Below, in pieces: positions 764-26,682 of a stretch of 64,000 bases of DNA. The notes beneath the pieces were generated by a model that searched no databases, was not told the origin of the DNA, and saw only the letters and a list, made by a program, of their open reading frames with translations. A program made the position numbers and the translations under genes. This DNA is from Escallonia rubra (Eukaryota; Streptophyta; Magnoliopsida; Escalloniales; Escalloniaceae): contig JAVXUO010002440.1 of the NCBI GenBank assembly GCA_033065855.1, positions 170,001 to 234,000 of the forward strand, written 5' to 3'. Every line of letters begins with the position of its first letter. Position 1 is the stretch's first letter.

Positions 764-2137
764 CCTTAGGAGAGCTATAGAATATTCTAGACCTAGGACT
801 ATACGGAATAGGCAATTTACATATACCGCAAGAAAAATGACTTTTAGCAACGAAAGTTCGTAAACCGTTGGAAAAGAGTTTTAGCGACGGACAACCCGTC
901 GCTAAATCTCCATTGCCTACAACCCCGTCTCTAAAAGTTTTGTGACGGATTTCTACAATCCGTCGCCTAAAGCCCACCTTCAATGACGGGCAAATTAACA
1001 CAATTGCCGACGGAGTTTTCGTCGCTAATTCTATATTTCGTATTTTAATTTTTTCTGTAATAATTTATTTCGTAAAATATTTAACGACAAATATCCGTCG
1101 CTAAAAGTTTATCCTTTAAAACTTTAGCGACAAAAATTCCGTTGCAAAAACTCGTTCCCTTAAAATAGTTAGACTTTTAGCAACGGAATAAAATCCGTCG
1201 CTAAAAGTCAAACTATTTTTTAATTTTTTTTTAATACCTAAACCTGTAATTACAATCCAACAATAAAATGTATACAAAATTCAAGAGGGCATGAGAGCGG
1301 GGTACATTAATAGAGTAGGGGAAAGGAGTACAAGTTGTGCGCCAGGGGGGGTGGTGAGGGGTGGGGGGGAGCGGGATACAAAGTGCTAGCTAAAGAGGGG
1401 AAGGGCTGATCAGAGTTTGGCGAGTCCCGGGGCATGTCTAGTAGCAGTGCCCTGCATGTAAAGACAAAAACGCATTAATCTTGATAACAATCGTATAATG
1501 TTCACTACTTAAACGTATATAGTGGTTGTACCTAATTATGTGTCGTGATCCTCCTATAAACCTCCGCAGCAATGCGACAGACCTCGTCCTCATGTAACGA
1601 CGAGTGCTCCACGGTCGGTGTATGCGTCTGTGGAGATGCAGTGGGGGCTGGGAACGCTTCTATCACGGCACGTGCAGTCATACCGGGGAGGTCGCGTACG
1701 TGGCCTAATTAAAACTGATTAACCCTAATTTACTGTTAATTTAAACTCTGATTAGCCCTAATTAAAACTGATTAACCCTAATGAACCCTAATTTTACTGT
1801 TAATTTAAGTCCTAATCACCACTGATTACCCTAATTAAACCCTGATTGTCCTCATAAATCGTAGACAAACCCTAAATAAACTCAATTAGGGTAATTAACT
1901 GTAATATGTTCTAATTAGGCTCAACTAGCCCTAATTAATCCTTGAATAACACTAATTGAGTTTAATTAAATGCAATTAACTGTAATTAACCCTAAATAGC
2001 TCGAATTGCCCCTAATTAACACACCTCGGCATTTTCACCTTAATTAGCTATATATTATCTATTTAGGTTCGATACAAAATCATTTGGTTATAGTGAACTT
2101 GAGCAGAGAAAATCATCATTCTTAAATCCTTTAATAT

Positions 2138-2502
2138 TTAACAATCCACCAAATCGGGATTCCCAAGTAAACCCGATTTTTTTGGTTGGTAAGTAATGGA
2201 CTCAAAAATTTCCCTTAGCTTATCATGTTGAACCATCTTGTCTGAGATCTTATCTTCTGGAACTTCAGATAACACTTTTGGCTCGCAACTCTCTATGACT
2301 ACAGAAGAGAAGACTTTCTGAGACAAAAGATCTTTCTTAGCCTGTCGTAGACATTCCCTGCCCTCCATTGTTCCTGAGGTAATTAGACGATAAATACACA
2401 TAGTTTTCTTTAGACTAATCTCGTATGCCCGACATATGGCTTGCCTTTCAACTGATGGATTGCAACCAATATCAAGCAACAAAAATCTCAACGCCCCAAC
2501 CA
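2138..2502 (-). pseudogene. Captured SNF2 (CLASSY-like) C-terminus, left arm
   Basis: On the minus strand this reads as the end of a SNF2 helicase. It starts in the VGA segment, passes motif VI (NPSVERQAICRAYEISLKK; the G-Q of the usual RxGQKK is lost here) and continues through a C-terminal tail SEVPEDKISDKMVQHDKLREIF to a stop. The tail resembles CLASSY3/4-type proteins as I remember them, so the SNF2 call is firm and the CLASSY call is likely. Only the last 120 or so residues are present, without a start, so this is a transduplicated fragment and not a gene. Confidence 0.75.
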
Positions 2503-2603
2503 AATTTATGCCCCACATAGCTTGCCTTTCAAACCTCATTTAGCTCGAATTAGCCCTCATTGGCATTAACCTTATTTAGCTCGAATTAGCCTTAATCGGC
2601 CCT

Positions 2604-2971
2604 GGTTGGGGCGTCAAGAGTTGTTTTGATTGATATTGGTTGGAACCCATCAGTTGAAAGGCAAGCCATATGTCGGGCATACAGGATTGGTCAGAAGAAA
2701 ACTGTGTATATATACCATCTAATTACCTCAGGAGCAATGGAGGGTAGGAAATGTCTGCGACAGGCTGAGAAAGACCTTTAATTTGTCTCAGAAAGTCTTC
2801 TCTTCTGCAGACATGGAGAGTTACGAGCCAAAAGTGTTATCTGAAGTCTCGGAAGATAAGATCTTAGACGAGATGGTTCAACATGACGCGCTAAAGGAAA
2901 TTTTTGAGTCCATAACTTACCAACCAAAAGCACCGGGTTTACTTGAGAATCTCGATTTGGGGGATCGTTAG
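2604..2971 (+). pseudogene. Captured SNF2 (CLASSY-like) C-terminus, right arm
   Basis: Inverted partner of the left-arm fragment and the better preserved of the two around motif VI: NPSVERQAICRAYRIGQKK, followed by YIYHLITSGAMEGRK. A small insertion near 2777-2783 breaks the frame relative to the left arm. The frame then resumes with SQKVFSSADMESYEPKV and ends at the stop 2969-2971. The flanking sequence to about 3065 is also shared with the left arm, so the capture included 3' untranslated sequence. Motif VI is the arginine-finger helicase motif of SNF2 ATPases. Confidence 0.78.
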
Positions 2972-3095
2972 ATATTGAAGGAGTTAAGAATGATGATTTA
3001 ATTTCTCTGCTCAAGTTCACTATAACGAAATGATTTTGTACCAAACCTAAATAGATCATAGCTAATTAAGGTGAAAATGCCGAGTTAATGTGTTA

Positions 3096-4270
3096 ATTAG
3101 GGGCAATTAGGGCAATTCGAGCTATTTAGGGTTGATTATAGTTCATTGCCTTTAATTAGACTCAATTAGTGTTATTCAGGGATTAACTCGAGCTACTTAA
3201 GGCTAGTTGAGCCTAATTAAAATATATTACAGTTAATTACCCTAATTGGGTTTATTTAGGGTTTGTCTACGATTTATCAGGACAATTAGAGTTTAATTAG
3301 GTTAATCAGCGGTGATTAGGGCTGATTAGAGATTGAATTAACAGTAAATTAGGGTTCATTAGGGTTAATCAGTTTTAATTAGGGCTAATAAGGCTAACTC
3401 AAGCTAAATAGGGTTAATGCTAATTAGGGCTATTTCGACCTAAATAGGGTTAATTGGGTTTAAATAGACTTAACTATTGTTAATTAGGATTGAGTCCCTT
3501 TAGAATTCGTTGAGTTCATTCGAAGAGTTGATATTGTCTCACCTGTGATTGAGTCCAGGGTTTAAGTATATAGTTAGGGACTAGATTGTTAATTAGGAAT
3601 ATATTAATAGGGTTTAATTAGAGTTTAGTTAGGTTAATTAGGGTTACTTAAGAATGTGTTAGGGGTTAATCGGGATTAATTGAGGATTAATCGGGGCTAA
3701 TTAGGGTTAATCGGGGTTAATTATGTTTACTTAGGGTTAATCAAGGATACCTAGGAATGTGTTAGGGGTTAATCGGGGTTTATTGGTTCAATTAGGGTAA
3801 ATCGGGATTAATTAGGCTAATTGGTTCAATTAGGTTGAATCAGGGTTAATTACAATTAATTGGTTCAGTTATGGTTAATCGGGTTTAATTGGGATTAATT
3901 TGTTCAATTAGCTAGGGTTACTCATGGTTAATTATTGTTAAGTGGCTAGATTAGGGATAATTAAGGTTTGATTAGGGTTAATTTGGTTCAATTAGGGTTA
4001 ATTGAGAACAAATTAGGGATAATTAGGGTTTAATTGTTACAATTACATTACAACAAATTAAATACAATTACATTACAAAAAATTAAATTCAATTACATTA
4101 TAACAAATCAAGTGCAATTACATTACAACAGATTAAATACAATTACATTACAACAATAGATTCAATACGATAAATAATTTCTAGCATATTACAACAGATT
4201 CAATACGATAAATAATTTCTAGCATATTATAATTTCTAACATTATAACAGATCCAATACGATAAATAATT
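3096..4270. repeat. Degenerate short-unit arrays inside the CACTA
   Basis: 3096-4030 is built of loosely repeated units like ttagggttaat, ggttaattaggg and cggggttaatt. 4030-4270 consists of units like caattacattacaacaaatt and tacgataaataatttctag. The inner part of the first array belongs to the right arm of the inverted repeat. The units recall the plant telomere word TTTAGGG but are too irregular to be telomeric. Confidence 0.7.
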
Positions 4271-5474
4271 TCTAACTCGAAAAAAAAAGTGAGTTCGGGC
4301 AGTGGTGGTGCAAGGCGGACGACGACAGTGGCACACGGAAGGCAACAACAGTAGAGCGCGGAAGGCAGCGGCAGTGGCGCGCGAAACGCGACGGAGGGTG
4401 GTGGTGCGACGGGGTGGGGGTGGAATTATGGCGATGATGGTGTGACTGTGAGGTGGCTGTGGAGTGGTGGCACGATTATGGGGTAGCTGCGGGGCGCCGA
4501 GGTGGCTATAGGGGCGGCAGATGTGAGGGGAGAGGGAAGGGCGGTGTGGTGGCGGGGGCCTATCGCTGGCGGGGGGGTGGGGAGGGAATGAGGCTGGGAT
4601 GTACGGTGGATGGGGCAGTGGAAGAGGTAGAGGGGACGGTGTAGGAAGAGAGAGAGAGGGAGAGAGGAAAAGTGTGGCGGGGAGAAAAGAAAAGAGAAAA
4701 TAGTAGGGTTGCGTGACTTTTTGCGATGGATCTTTGCCGTTGCTAAAGGTCTGTCACTAAAAGGAATCTTTTAATCCATTTTTAGCGACGGACTTTTAGC
4801 GACGGAAACAACCGTCGCTACAATCCTTCAAAACTCTATAAAATACTACTTTCAGCGACGGACACATATTCGTCACTAAATGTTTGTCATTGATTATTTT
4901 TCAAAATTATTTTCTCCTAAGCCAAAAATCCGATTGAAAATAAAAAAATTAGAAAAAAAATATTTAACGACATAAATTCTGTCGGTTTTTACCCGTAGCG
5001 ACGGGTATTTTCGTCTCGAAAGGTGACTTTTGGCGATGGAATTGACTCCGTCGCTAAAGACTTATTTTCTTGTAGTGATACTACTGTATATTATCTAACA
5101 GTTCTAGCCATCAAGAGAAAAGTTAAATGGCATTCAAACCTCCTATCGTTTGAGTGTTTTCGCATTTAAGACCCGAAAGTTTCATATATCAAGCACCTGA
5201 TCTTTTTTATATTGACGCATTCAAATACAAAATGATCATATTTTTAGAATTAGAAGAGTTGACCTTACCCACACAAATATGAGTGATGAGGGAAAATATG
5301 AGTAATAAGGTGAAAAAAGAAATGATGGGATTAGATTGGCTTATAAAAAGAGAGGACCAGAAGAGGAAAGGGAGGAGATCAACTCGCGAAAGAAAAATGG
5401 GGAAAACAGCAAAGAGGAAAGAGAAGAAAATATGAAAGAGGAAAGAAAGAGGGACAATAAGAAATATATCTTCT

Positions 5475-5684: not shown

Positions 5685-6470
5685 GGGCCCGTACATTTAC
5701 GTAATTCATTTTCAGTTTTCATATTCAGTTTTCGTTTTCATAATTTTCGTATTCAGACAGAAAATTCATTCTTGTACTTTTATTATTTTCACAATTCATT
5801 TTAGCTACTTTTTCTGTCGGATTTATGAACTTATATCATTTTCATTTTCACTTTTGTACTGGTATCCTTATATTATTTATAATATACACTACATGACCCA
5901 CACCCTCCCCCGCATCGACGCGTGGCTGGCTTTTCACTCAACCTGCCCAGTCTGCCGAGCAAACATGTCGCCTGAGATGGTGAGTCCAAAGATTGTCGTG
6001 GAAATTGATTGCCGTGGATGGCGAGTCCATCGACACGTGGCTGGCTTTCCATCCTGACTGTCGAGCCAACCTGGCTTTTCAAGATCAACTTTCGATTGCC
6101 GTGGAAATTGATCCATCGACGCAACCCCGGCTGCCTGAGATGCTGAGTCCAAAGCAAAATCGAAAGATTATAACGAAGAAGAGAGAGGGAGGGAGCATAA
6201 ATCTTTTGAGGTGGTGCTATGGTGGTTCAGTGGCGGCTCTGGTCTTTTGAGGTCATCGTGGTGTTAGGGGAGAGAGAGAGAGGGAGTGAGCAAAAATCTG
6301 ACACAGAAGAAAATTTCTGACATTGAGTTCACCTTTTTCGGATTTTTGCTACTGTTTCGAAAAAGTACCCAAAACGAATACGAAAAAAGATAAAAATACG
6401 CAAAAAAAAAAGGCATATTTTTCATCATCATTACAAAAACGAAAACAACATTTTGTCAACGTACAGCCCC
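5685..6470. mobile_element. Harbinger-like element with captured RING-H2 piece
   Basis: 786 bp flanked by taa (5682-5684, 6471-6473), as in PIF/Harbinger elements. The ends are gggcccgtacatttac and the reverse complement ggggctgtacgttgac. The second copy of the duplication near 45075-45085 is the empty site. The subterminal zones are rich in tttcattttcag-like sequence and the interior holds RING-H2 fragments. No transposase is visible. A smaller relative with a similar end is at 35399-35680. Confidence 0.72.
5896..6160 (+). pseudogene. Captured RING-H2 (ATL-type) fragments, repeated
   Basis: Near 5915-5966 the plus strand reads IDAWLAFHSTCPVCR, the second half of a RING-H2 finger (IDxWL..H..CPxCR), the zinc- and E2-binding part of ATL-type ubiquitin ligases. 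A second, shortened version near 6029-6073 reads SIDTWLAFHPDCRANL and has lost the CPxC step. The neighbouring phrase gagatg.tgagtccaaag occurs near 5975 and 6140, so a unit was duplicated. There are no first-half zinc ligands, no signal anchor and no full frame. This is a transduplicated fragment. Confidence 0.7.
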
Positions 6471-6975: not shown

Positions 6976-7229
6976 ATTGTTTTGGAAAAAAATTGGCTGC
7001 TACCCCGATTGAAAGAATCTTTCTCCTACCTCTTATATAACGACAATCAACTGTCTCTAAATATTTCTAGTGGCTTTTATTTAGTGACGCTAAAAAAGTG
7101 CTGCTAATAATTGTTACTGAAAGTGTTAGAAGAAATGTCGTTTGAAACATCTAGCGACAATTAATTGTCACTATACATGGGGTTGAAGGAAGATTCCTAC
7201 AACCCGAGTAGGAGCCAAAGTTTGTTCTA
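6976..7229. mobile_element. Small foldback element
   Basis: About 250 bp absent from the duplicated locus near 47840. Its ends form an imperfect inverted repeat: ttggctgctaccccgattg on the left against ttggctcctactcgggttg on the reverse strand at the right. The superfamily is unclear because no convincing target-site duplication longer than 3 bp is visible. Confidence 0.6.
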
Positions 7230-7744
7230 TTGCTTTTATATCTTTTACGGCATTAAAATTTCAATTGATTTAATTGGTCGACTTAAATAGCCCTTAGAAA
7301 AGATCACGTGTTTGGCACATGTTCACTTTCATCCATAAAATTTCAAGAGTGGGCTAATTTTGGGTTTGAACGGTGTTATCAGACTCACTCCCAGCTCGAC
7401 AGCTCGACGGATTGACGGATTGACCGAATAAACCCATGACCCAATACTCAAGCTAGGCTAGTCCTTGAGATCGATGGGACACTTAGTTTGCCTGTGAAGA
7501 CCTACATGACCTAAATGGGTTTCAAGAACCGATTTGCTTCAAAAAATTATGATTATCGTGTCACAAGTTTTCAACGCTGGTATGTTGCACGAGACAAAAA
7601 TGCCATTGACCGTTGGACCACCAATGTGGATATGCAACATATATAGATGCTAATATGTAAAATCATAAAAAGCTTCTCAACCTAATCGCTCAAATATTTT
7701 TTACACTTTTCCTTTGGTTTTCGGTAAAAATTAACAAGATAGTT

Positions 7745-8943
7745 TTGTTTTTTTTTTGGGTGAAAGTCATCTTTATTGCCAATCCACGGTTTACATTTCT
7801 AATTCTATCTCATCTCACTTAATTCTCTATAATCATTCTAAGATATCTCATCTCTTCTACCACTATGGTCTAAGATATCAAAATCCTTTCATTTATTTCC
7901 CAATAAGAGCAAAGTCTTCTGTTGATGCTGTGTCCTTTTACCTGCTTCCAGCTGCGGATGCACCATTGCAATCACTGTTTGATTAACATGAGCAGCTCAT
8001 CACTAGAGTTCTGTTGTTGCTCAAATATCCTCATATTTCTCTCAAACCAGATCATGTACACAGTCACTGCCAATCCCAGCTTCCTTATCCTTGCTTGAAA
8101 GCTTTTTCCTCTGAATTCCTTGGAAGCATAGTCAAGGAAATGCTTCAAAGAATCCCTTTGAGTCTGTACCATCATTTTCCTCAGCACCTCTGTCCATACT
8201 CTTCTGGTGTAAGTACATTTCCAAAAGAGATGATCTTCATCTTCCCTATGATTATCACAGAGGGGGCATTTCTCATCCATGTTATTGTTCCATTTCACCA
8301 ATTTATCTTTGGTCTTCAGTCCTCCTTTGCATAACATCCACAGTATCACTGCACACTTAGGAATATTGCCTTGGAACCAAACTATTTTCCACCATGGTAC
8401 CACTTCCCCTTTGGTTCTTAAGGACTGCCATGCTGAGTTAACTGAAAATATGGCTTTTTTATTCATCTTCCAAAGTATTTTGTCTTCTTTATCTAGTTGG
8501 GGTTGACTAATGCTGCTCATATCTTCATGCCACCCTCTAAGAGCTTGGGACCTTGCTTGATGTAATTTCCAGTGATCATTTTCTATTATATCACTCATTT
8601 TGCTCTCCTTGCTTAGGCCAGAGTCATATATGATTCTATTATCAAACTTTGCAGCTAGGCTACCTTGATAATGTAGGTATGGCACCATTTCACCCGCAAT
8701 GAGTCCTTTTTATGAGCTAAGTCCCATATATGCTTATATATAGCTGCTCTGTTCCATTCGGCAAGTCTTTTTATCCCCAACCCTCCTTCTTGCTTAGGTA
8801 GACACATTTCCTTCCAAGCCACTTTGGCTTTAGTGCATTTTGTGTCTTTTCCATGCCAGATAAATGCCCTAATTTTAGCTTCTATTTGCTTGATGATTTT
8901 CTGAGGAAGAATGAATATAGAGCACCAATACACTTGCATGCTC
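7745..8943 (-). mobile_element. 5'-truncated LINE, reverse transcriptase C-terminal part
   Basis: Minus strand. 8655-8943 encodes the end of a plant LINE reverse transcriptase, including FIWHGKDTKCTKAKVAW and LPKQEGGLGIKRLAEWNRA. 7972-8688 encodes the following zf-RVT region, with CPLCDNHREDEDHLFWKC as its zinc-binding-like motif. The frame changes once near 8655-8688. A poly-T run at 7747-7757 marks the 3' tail. A target duplication of about 14 bp, ttaacaagatagtt (7731-7744) against ttaacgagatagtt (8944-8957), brackets the copy. The duplicated locus near 48260 lacks it. Confidence 0.88.
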
Positions 8944-23885: not shown

Positions 23886-25509
23886 AACATAAAGCCCTGC
23901 CCACCAGATAATGAGAGTGAGAAACATGCATGATGCAACAAAGAAACATTAGCTCTTACTTTTTATTACTAGAAGACAAAAAATGCTATGCACATCCATA
24001 TCAATGGCAAGCAGACTCATCATATAAGTCATTTGGTTGAGTTCAAGATGCGAATTGTATATAATCTTGCACAATTTTCTAGTTTTGGCAGATGACTAGA
24101 GAACTTGTAGCATCTGCACCATTGCCTCAGATCGAAATCCTCGTAAGAGTAGAACAAAGGAGCAAGTTGGTCTTTCATTCGTTATCATCAAAATGAGCTC
24201 AGATAATGGGAATTCACCGCAATTGATATTTTACACAATGTCTTAGTTAAATTCTTGTAGCCATTAAATGGAGTTGTTCCAAATACTAAAATGAGTGAGT
24301 ATAAGAGGGTATTAAGACTTGCAACCTAAGAAGCACGGACAAGGGTGTGAGTGCGAATAGTGTATACGGCATTTTTGAAAATTTCCAGATGGGTGCGGAG
24401 GGGATACAGCAAATATTGCATATATTTTAACTATGTACACTTAGTAGTGACTTACTAAACAAAATAGGGACCATTTGAATCTTAAAATAGTGCATAGTGC
24501 AATTTAACCATTCTACAATATCATCAAATATATCATAACCACCACCATATACATCATAACCAAATACATCATATTAGGAGTAGCATCAAAGTTTTAAAAG
24601 CAGGCAGTGGCTAAGTTCCAAAGTTCAAACCAGTGATGCTAAGTAGCACGGACACGGACACCGTGTCCGACACCGACCGGGACACCGCAATTTCCAAAAA
24701 ACCAGATTTTGGACACCGCTGAATTTTTTTATATATTTTTCTTATGTATATATATAGTCATTAAATATCAAATACATTCTACATCTAAAATAGTAAACAA
24801 TAATCAATAACCACAAACAAGCAACTCAAATAAAGTCTTACTTAAAATTTAAATGCAATATAGTACAAAAAATTGGTAGATAACATAACAAAGTACTTCC
24901 CTACTCAACTCTTACTAAGTCATGCAAACAGGTAACAGAAACAGGGAAAGCGCCCTCTTCTTCACCGTCCAAACAGGGAACTCTTGCAAAGTAATAAGAA
25001 ATTACTTCACTACTTAACTCTTACAAAGTCACACAACAATTATCTCTTTCTCTTCTCTTGACGCCGCAGGAGAGATGGGAGAGAAAGGAGGAGACCTCAG
25101 GAAAGAAGGAAAAAAGAGATAGATGAAAGAGAAAGACAAAGGTACCTGTTGCTGGAATCCGGCGACGGCGGCGAGATCCTCCGGCGACCAGTTTGGGACG
25201 GTCGTCTGCTTCGTTCTCTTCTCTTGACGCCGCAGGAAGAAGACTCAGAAGTCAGAACGGTCATGGGTCTATCTAATTAGGGCTTCCCTAAAGTCTATTT
25301 CTAAAAGAGCTCCAAAATTGTCAATTATTACACACAAACCCCCAAAATAAGTTTGAAAATTTTTACTTTGGCCCCATACTTTTGGACACTTCTCCATGAG
25401 GTGTCACGAAGTGTCGAAAACGGACGCTTACAAGGCGATGAATGGACAAAGTTTTCAAAAAGTTCACTAACTCTCTAAACATGCTTCCTGTATATTGAGA
25501 TAATTCTAA

Positions 25510-26682
25510 GAGTTAATTACACCGTTGACCATCGAACTATTAGGCAAATTTCACTTTGACCACTGAACTTCGATTTGTGTCAAAGTGACCACTGAATTCT
25601 CCAATTGAGCCTAATCGGGTCATTCTGTTAATTTTAGACATCCACAGGCCCGTTAATTTCATTAAGTCTGGGGTAAATTTGTCACTTTCAAAATATTTTA
25701 GGTTTTTGTTTTTTTTTTAACTTCTTTCCTTTTTCTTCTATTTTCTTCTTCTCTTCCTCCCTCCACCGCCGACCTAGCCCACTAGCAGCCGACCACCATA
25801 CCCAGGACACCCTATCCAAGCCTCGTTTCACACCCCAACACCTCTCGACACCCCATCCAAGCCTCGATCTGGTGTGTGACACCGCCTTCTCGTGCTCTTC
25901 CGTCCACGGCCAACTCGAAGAACCTCATGCGATCCCTAACCCAATCTTCAAACAGTAATTCGAGAGCTACAGGGAGTAATTCGAGCGCGATCGACTCATT
26001 ATTAATCATGATCGTGAAGTGGACAGTATATTGAATCAGCAGGTTTGGCAGGGGTGTTTGATTTTTTGCTTATGTGTATGAGATTGAGTTTGTGTGTGGG
26101 CGTGTGTTATGTTTGTGTGGTGTGGGGTGAATTGGATCATACGAGAGTCTCTGTATGTGTGGTGTATCGGGTGGGGGGTGGGATGAATTGTGGTGGCGTC
26201 GTATGGTGATGCCGTCATATGGTGCTCCGTCGCTGTGCTAGGTGGATTGTCGTTGTGTTAGGCTGGTGGTGGTGTGGTTGTGCTCCGTGGATCAGTGAGT
26301 GTGACGACGAGGGGAAGGGTGTTGCCGTAGTGTGTTTGGTGTGGTCTAGGCGTGGCTGTGCTGGGTGGATTGTGGTGGTGTGAGGCTGGTGGTGTAGTTG
26401 TGCTCCGTGGTTGGTGGCGGCGCTGTATGGTGATGCTGGGTTTGAAGAGAAACAGGAGATAGGGCTTGAAGAGAAACCAGGAGATAAGTGAAGAAGAAGA
26501 AATTGAAATGACATATTTACCCCTGAATAAAGTCACTTAACGGACTTAGGGCTAACGGAGCCTAACAGAGTGACTTGATTGGACAAATTAACAAATTCAG
26601 TGGTCACTTTGACACAAATCGAAGTTCAGTGGTCAAAGTGAAATTTGCCTAATAGTTCGATGGTCAACCGCGTAATTAACTC
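25510..26682. mobile_element. Mutator-like element (family B), copy 1
   Basis: 1173 bp with the 9-bp duplication taattctaa (25501-25509, 26683-26691). TIRs begin gagttaatta and continue with the phrase gaccatcgaactattaggca. The interior has a CT-rich zone, then a G/T-rich minus-strand-open zone. Its twin at 30957-32127 differs at only about ten positions by eye, so both moved recently. No transposase. Confidence 0.92.

Follow-up and report, generated by a model that had tools for sequence, protein, structure and literature searches.

Sequence comparisons show, or closely argue, that a family of CACTA elements in Escallonia rubra captured the 3' terminal part of a SNF2 gene of the host, holds it as an inverted duplicate and has spread in that form. 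The apparent donor gene persists in the same genome with an open SNF2 frame. The element studied lies in a stretch of 64 kb (C2512:170001-234000, hereafter the window), and its relatives were sought in the 3,222 contigs of the genome sequence (566 Mb). We put at about 0.5 the probability that siRNAs from the hairpin formed by this duplicate once acted in trans on the gene, which looks like a member of the CLASSY3/4 type, as a by-product of the structure, the effect being weak or absent in the present copies.

The DNA between 824 and 5077 is a CACTA (En/Spm) element by its terminal inverted repeats (TIRs), its 3-bp target site duplication (TSD) and its subterminal repeats (Table 1). A preliminary description of this DNA had proposed a CACTA-type element at 1735-3395; the type is borne out by the TIRs, the ATA duplication and the TAGCGACGG subterminal repeats, and the palindrome at that place is real, but the full element is longer than claimed, with a length of 4,254 bp. 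The right TIR reads TTTTCTTGTAGTG and is intact. The left end, from 824, reads TACCGCAAGAAAAATGAC where other copies have CACTACAAGAAAAATGAC, and CACTACAAGAAAA was intact at the equivalent of the left end in 11 other copies inspected. Both ends were located in four copies and flanked by matching 3-bp TSDs in three of them (ATA in the window, GTT in L019 and TCG in L024); in the fourth, L027, both ends are present and the TSDs do not match. All frames inside the element are shorter than 220 aa, and no transposase domain was detected by a Pfam scan of six element frames. Dense degenerate repeats of the AATTAGGGTT type are present to the right of the palindrome, at 3560-4040, and also in the outer arms; by appearance, those at 3560-4040 have a likeness to plant telomere-like repeats. 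Elsewhere in the window, a 245-aa frame at 7972-8709 on the minus strand carries a zf-RVT domain (E 3.2e-24) and corresponds to the tail of the reverse transcriptase of a non-LTR retrotransposon.

Table 1. Coordinates, in the window, of the CACTA element and of the palindrome that it carries.
Feature	Position	Strand	Remarks
CACTA element, transposase not recognised	824..5077		4,254 bp; both ends and TSD
Left TSD, ATA	821..823		matches right TSD
Right TSD, ATA	5078..5080		matches left TSD
Left TIR, decayed: TACCGCAAGAAAA instead of CACTACAAGAAAA	824..836	+	other copies intact at the matching place
Right TIR, intact; CACTACAAGAAAA on the minus strand	5065..5077	-	sequence read
TAGCGACGG-type repeats near the left end, in either orientation	882..1203		exact copies at 882, 896, 1095, 1195
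TAGCGACGG-type repeats near the right end, in either orientation	4783..5056		exact copies at 4783, 4797, 4812, 4996, 5048
Palindrome, left arm	1718..2502	-	BLAST self-comparison; gene part antisense to plus strand
Palindrome, loop, 100 bp	2503..2602		BLAST self-comparison
Palindrome, right arm	2603..3418	+	BLAST self-comparison; gene part sense
Putative CLASSY3/4-type coding end, left-arm copy, open to its stop	2138..2516	-	donor comparison
Donor 3' UTR piece, left arm	2044..2137	-	DNA comparison with donor gene
Putative CLASSY3/4-type coding end, right-arm copy, frame broken	2603..2971	+	4-bp insertion near 2778
Donor 3' UTR piece, right arm	2972..3069	+	DNA comparison with donor gene

The core of the element is an inverted repeat whose arms share 85.0% identity over 825 columns in a BLAST self-comparison (reported E 0.0), in agreement with the hairpin with arms of about 0.78 kb that had been described. 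No second inverted repeat of at least 120 nt with arms at most 8 kb apart was found in the 64-kb window. The gene-derived part, comprising a coding end and a 3' UTR piece, is confined to the inner ~460 bp of each arm; the outer ~320-350 bp of each arm are an AT-rich TE repeat. In a PDB sequence search, the left-arm frame matched the last part of SNF2 ATPases, namely RAD54-like, ERCC6 and ATRX chains (best E 9.4e-10, RAD54-like). The Pfam Helicase_C domain was matched by the right-arm frame with an E value of 0.0013, under the curated cut-off, and was not matched by the left-arm frame. The earlier proposal that both arms encode the C-terminal end of a SNF2 protein thus stands with respect to their origin, whereas a frame running to the stop is present in the left arm only, the right one being interrupted near 2778.

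To find the host gene, family searches were made with SNF2 (82 matches) and Helicase_C (at least 140 matches, with 150 candidates scored out of 238), and four genes in which the two domains share a single long frame were compared. The consensus left-arm peptide is identical to the product of the gene on C2428 at 102 of 127 residues (80%, E 7e-66), compared to 36% over 112, 48% over 56 and 41% over 64 residues for the three other SNF2 genes. In the C2428 gene, an acidic frame of 743 aa and a short frame with cysteines precede a 641-aa SNF2 frame, in which SNF2-rel_dom (5.6e-24) and Helicase_C (1.2e-16) are both located in one exon. We take it to be probably of CLASSY3/4 type from this layout and from a likeness to the tail of Arabidopsis CLSY4. 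An approximate C-terminal piece of CLSY4, used as query in place of a database sequence, is 54% identical to the C2428 gene over 210 aa and 37-39% identical to the three other genes. On the basis of the layout, the match to one SNF2 gene in four and the approximate CLSY4 tail, the donor gene looks like one of CLASSY3/4 type. For the CLASSY3/4-like arms of the preliminary description, this means that the origin is upheld, the C2428 gene being the best of four, and that the choice of CLSY3/4 over DRD1 or CLSY1/2 is a tentative one, drawn from the match of the arms to one gene in four and from the approximate CLSY4 tail. A copy of the gene on C1563 is 99.2% identical over 6,019 columns and is most likely a second allele; in a DNA search with a 5'-extended fragment, the gene itself was found on C2428 and C1563 only among the best 40 of 176 candidates. 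Within the part of its exon end that the arms match, the C2428 gene (L029) has a 21-bp near-repeat, SEDKILYSEDKIL, of which the element copies are devoid.

The arms of the window family correspond to positions 6065-6459 of the gene, ending just past the stop codon, joined to positions 7141-7216 in the 3' UTR, and followed by the AT-rich element repeats. The left arm consensus agrees with the gene at 391 of 443 ungapped columns and the right one at 402 of 447, and the identity of the window's own arms to the gene is 83.5% and 87.7%, respectively. Older copies carry a longer fragment, 5966-6452 plus 7141-7463, with the identical 6452/7141 join. This join was found, within a few bases, in 11 of the 14 loci mapped (L040 and L043-L055); L044 and L055 are compatible with it and L052 stops short of it. 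Because the internal join is common to window-type and older copies, the comparison points to one capture event behind all copies; the tree described below has the gene as its only outgroup and cannot itself show a single capture. Capture of a spliced mRNA, with the 6452-6461/7141 join taken as a 3'-UTR intron, is not favoured, as the missing stretch is devoid of GT-AG ends. A deletion at a GGA microhomology may explain the join. We also considered the one-armed locus L040 (C1518) as a progenitor preceding the inversion. This locus has the ancestral letter at the polarisable left- and right-specific sites and 40 bp of extra gene sequence; against the proposal, older two-armed copies carry the same extra sequence and, in the tree, L040 clusters with a single arm of L047. 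It was dropped as a progenitor, and loss of one arm may account for L040 equally well.

The number of copies, which the preliminary description had left to be counted, was obtained from three DNA searches of the genome, in which the best 40 of 686, 262 and 176 first-look candidates, respectively, were scored. Fragments were present at 84 or more places in the union of the searches, duplicates included. These copies are not all independent: the flanks of L013 and L015 are 98% alike and L037 and L038 look identical. L010 (C1225) and L012 (C28) have 1.68 kb of left flank in common at 92%, so that part of the copies stem from the duplication of a larger segment rather than from transposition. Both arms were present in 30 of 40 scored places and one arm in 10, though C1475 has both by another search; the six one-armed places that were fetched all carried a single arm in the stretch. 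Both arms were seen in the window and in each of 20 copies chosen as near-full-length top matches (21/21, partly a result of this choice) and in 10 of 13 older copies fetched, some of them partial. On C3164, the older long-arm copies L049, L046 and L043 occupy 24550-26350, 73360-75160 and 152900-154700, respectively, within 130 kb.

The two arms have separate histories. Over the 458-bp gene piece, left arms of different copies are 91.2% alike and right arms 91.3%, and a left arm resembles a right arm at 89.1% within copies and 88.8% between copies. The two arms had thus separated before the window-type copies spread. The left and right arm consensuses are 96.2% alike and, in a tree built without the duplicates L015 and L038, the left arms form one clade with a support of 95. 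Compared to the gene, the inferred state of the element shows 6, 6 and 20 coding mismatches at codon positions 1, 2 and 3, a pattern expected where the gene kept evolving under constraint. Substitution rates in plants are 0.7-1.3e-8 per site per year; with these rates, the 9% pairwise difference between copies would place the spread very roughly at 3-7 million years ago.

The copies were then compared with the gene at the length of small RNAs. Among the 42 arms of the 21 near-full-length copies, 41 contain perfect 21-mers to the gene and 37 contain perfect 24-mers, so that perfect matches of both lengths are present, in either arm, in all 21 copies. In the window, the right arm has 33 perfect 21-mers with a longest exact run of 41 nt and the left arm 10 with a longest run of 28 nt; the longest exact run in L010 is 54 nt. 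An RNA covering 2044-3069 is predicted to fold along the arms with a value of -666 kcal/mol, to be read without a shuffled comparison at that length. The expectation that arms and donor gene would be alike enough for pairing was thus confirmed in every copy examined (21/21), the donor-type gene being present in the genome, and a transcript of the element could form, by folding back, double-stranded RNA in which the match to the gene is still present.

Long hairpins can be diced in plants independently of Pol IV. From the behaviour of long inverted repeats in plants, we infer both the production of siRNAs and their contact with the gene. Read-through or internal transcription of a copy would give an RNA with arms paired over ~460 bp of gene-derived sequence; Dicer-like enzymes would cut the paired arms into siRNAs, with no requirement for Pol IV, and some of these siRNAs would perfectly match the CLASSY3/4-type mRNA and could reduce it in trans. 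Such trans-active siRNAs may have arisen at least when the copies were younger, as a by-product of the structure, and would have little or no effect in present copies because the arms are decaying. No selection of the element for its effect in trans is claimed in this reading. The siRNAs might instead be directed mainly against the element itself, or the likeness to a host gene that is needed might restrain silencing and serve as camouflage, two possibilities that we regard together as quite unlikely. The maize Mu killer locus is an inverted duplication proposed to yield a hairpin RNA (PMC3440606), and captured gene pieces have been reported as sources of siRNAs, together with the idea of camouflage (PMC13317346); however, no part of a transposase was recognised in the arms, which would leave non-coding copies as the only targets of self-silencing.

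The closest parallel is found in rice. According to PMC3459959, five CACTA copies in Nipponbare carry pre-miR820, which is similar to OsDRM2, and miR820 lowers OsDRM2; at least 18 copies are reported in a BB genome. Changes in step between miR820 and DRM2 have also been reported. As in that case, the present fold-back is borne by a multicopy CACTA family, derives from its putative target gene and would be aimed at RdDM. The miR820 system as reported there has a short precursor, a defined 22/24-nt small RNA and a demonstrated regulation of OsDRM2 (PMC3459959), whereas here the predicted hairpin is long and imperfect, with ~0.8-kb arms containing a CLASSY3/4-type coding end and 3' UTR. The family also occupies at least 84 places, compared to five in Nipponbare and at least 18 in the BB genome (PMC3459959). 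It resembles Pack-CACTA and other Pack-type TIR elements as described in PMC13317346 in carrying a host gene piece between CACTA ends without a recognised transposase, and differs from Pack-CACTA in that the captured piece has been duplicated in inverted orientation, so that it forms a long palindrome, and in that its source is a silencing gene. It resembles Mu killer in the inverted duplication and in the hairpin RNA and siRNAs that are expected; in contrast, Mu killer is presented as one rearranged MuDR locus acting against a transposase (PMC3440606), whereas arms matching a host SNF2 gene are carried here by a multicopy CACTA family. CACTA elements that capture genes and rearranged transposons that give hairpin RNAs are already known (PMC13317346, PMC3440606), and what is new compared to miR820 is the long hairpin and the different RdDM gene. 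No description of a CLASSY piece in a CACTA hairpin was found in the open-access literature, surveyed mostly by titles and abstracts, a survey that leaves its absence unproven.

The rice precedent, in which the superfamily and the pathway are the same and the RNA derives from its own target (PMC3459959), speaks for a counter-defence under selection of the kind proposed for miR820: siRNAs from the hairpin would lower the CLASSY3/4-type gene, RdDM would weaken, elements with the hairpin would transpose more and the hairpin form would spread. Arabidopsis CLASSYs dock to Pol IV (PMC11603163), and CLSY3 and CLSY4 direct Pol IV siRNAs in ovules (PMC8752594); the site of action would probably be reproductive tissue, where CLSY3/4 act in Arabidopsis. 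The hairpin predates the spread of the window-type copies (the left-arm clade). As dicing does not require Pol IV, the siRNAs could be made independently of the gene that they attack. If true, this would bring to two the CACTA attacks on RdDM, built independently of each other, with miR820/OsDRM2 as the other one and the present one at the recruiting step, and few cases of plant transposons countering silencing are known. Should siRNAs be present and active, the same superfamily would have struck RdDM twice by one trick; should they be absent, the family would be a clean case of a suggestive structure as a mere passenger. In either case, a multicopy hairpin of a Pol IV-recruiting gene offers a direct and cheap test case for counter-silencing by transposons.

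Selection and targeting were analysed with four sequence tests, and none gave a family-wide signal of ongoing selection or targeting. Firstly, coding constraint was absent: copies differ from the arm consensus by 5.2, 4.4 and 5.4% at codon positions 1, 2 and 3, and the left-arm frame reaches 120 residues or more in 5 of 21 copies and is broken earlier in the other 16. Secondly, among 20 copies, the gene-derived arms are no less diverse than the loop (0.093 each vs 0.081); the outer arms reach 0.105-0.114 and the sequence further left 0.16-0.25, the core being less diverse than the flanks. Thirdly, no CpG loss was seen in the gene, where the CpG ratio is 0.67 in the matched exon stretch vs 0.39, 0.39 and 0.67 elsewhere in that exon; a methylation footprint in the C2428 gene was rejected on this unlowered ratio. 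Fourthly, arms of one copy are slightly closer to each other than shuffled pairs (p ~0.014 for 20 short-arm copies and p ~0.013 for 9 long-arm copies). Homogenisation of the arms was nevertheless rejected, as p rises to 0.17 without L010 and to 0.11 without L051, respectively, and the signal is that of single copies.

These tests gave no sign of selection for matching after the spread. That a CACTA family was armed with a CLASSY3/4-type hairpin, that its Pol IV-free siRNAs cut the recruitment of Pol IV, that the family spread and that the weapon wore out as copies decayed is a scenario that we think improbable. The same results agree with a passive passenger, a gene piece captured, inverted by chance and carried along, whose origin from a silencing gene would be a coincidence and whose effect in trans would never have mattered. 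Arm decay looks neutral by codon positions and by the diversity of arms and loop, the family shows neither arm homogenisation once a single copy is dropped nor a CpG footprint in the gene, most left-arm frames are interrupted, the one-armed places suggest that the hairpin can be lost at no obvious cost, and CACTA elements are documented to capture genes (PMC13317346). On the other side stand the perfect 21-24-nt matches kept in every copy examined and the presence of both arms in three quarters of the scored places; recent amplification alone would also give such persistence. We give the passive passenger slightly less than an even chance; this explanation and the former action of hairpin siRNAs in trans as a structural by-product are about level, and a selected counter-defence ranks lower. 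Among the transitions that distinguish the arms from the C2428 gene, which are unpolarised, 15 sites have A/T in the gene where the element has G/C, and 6 show the reverse.
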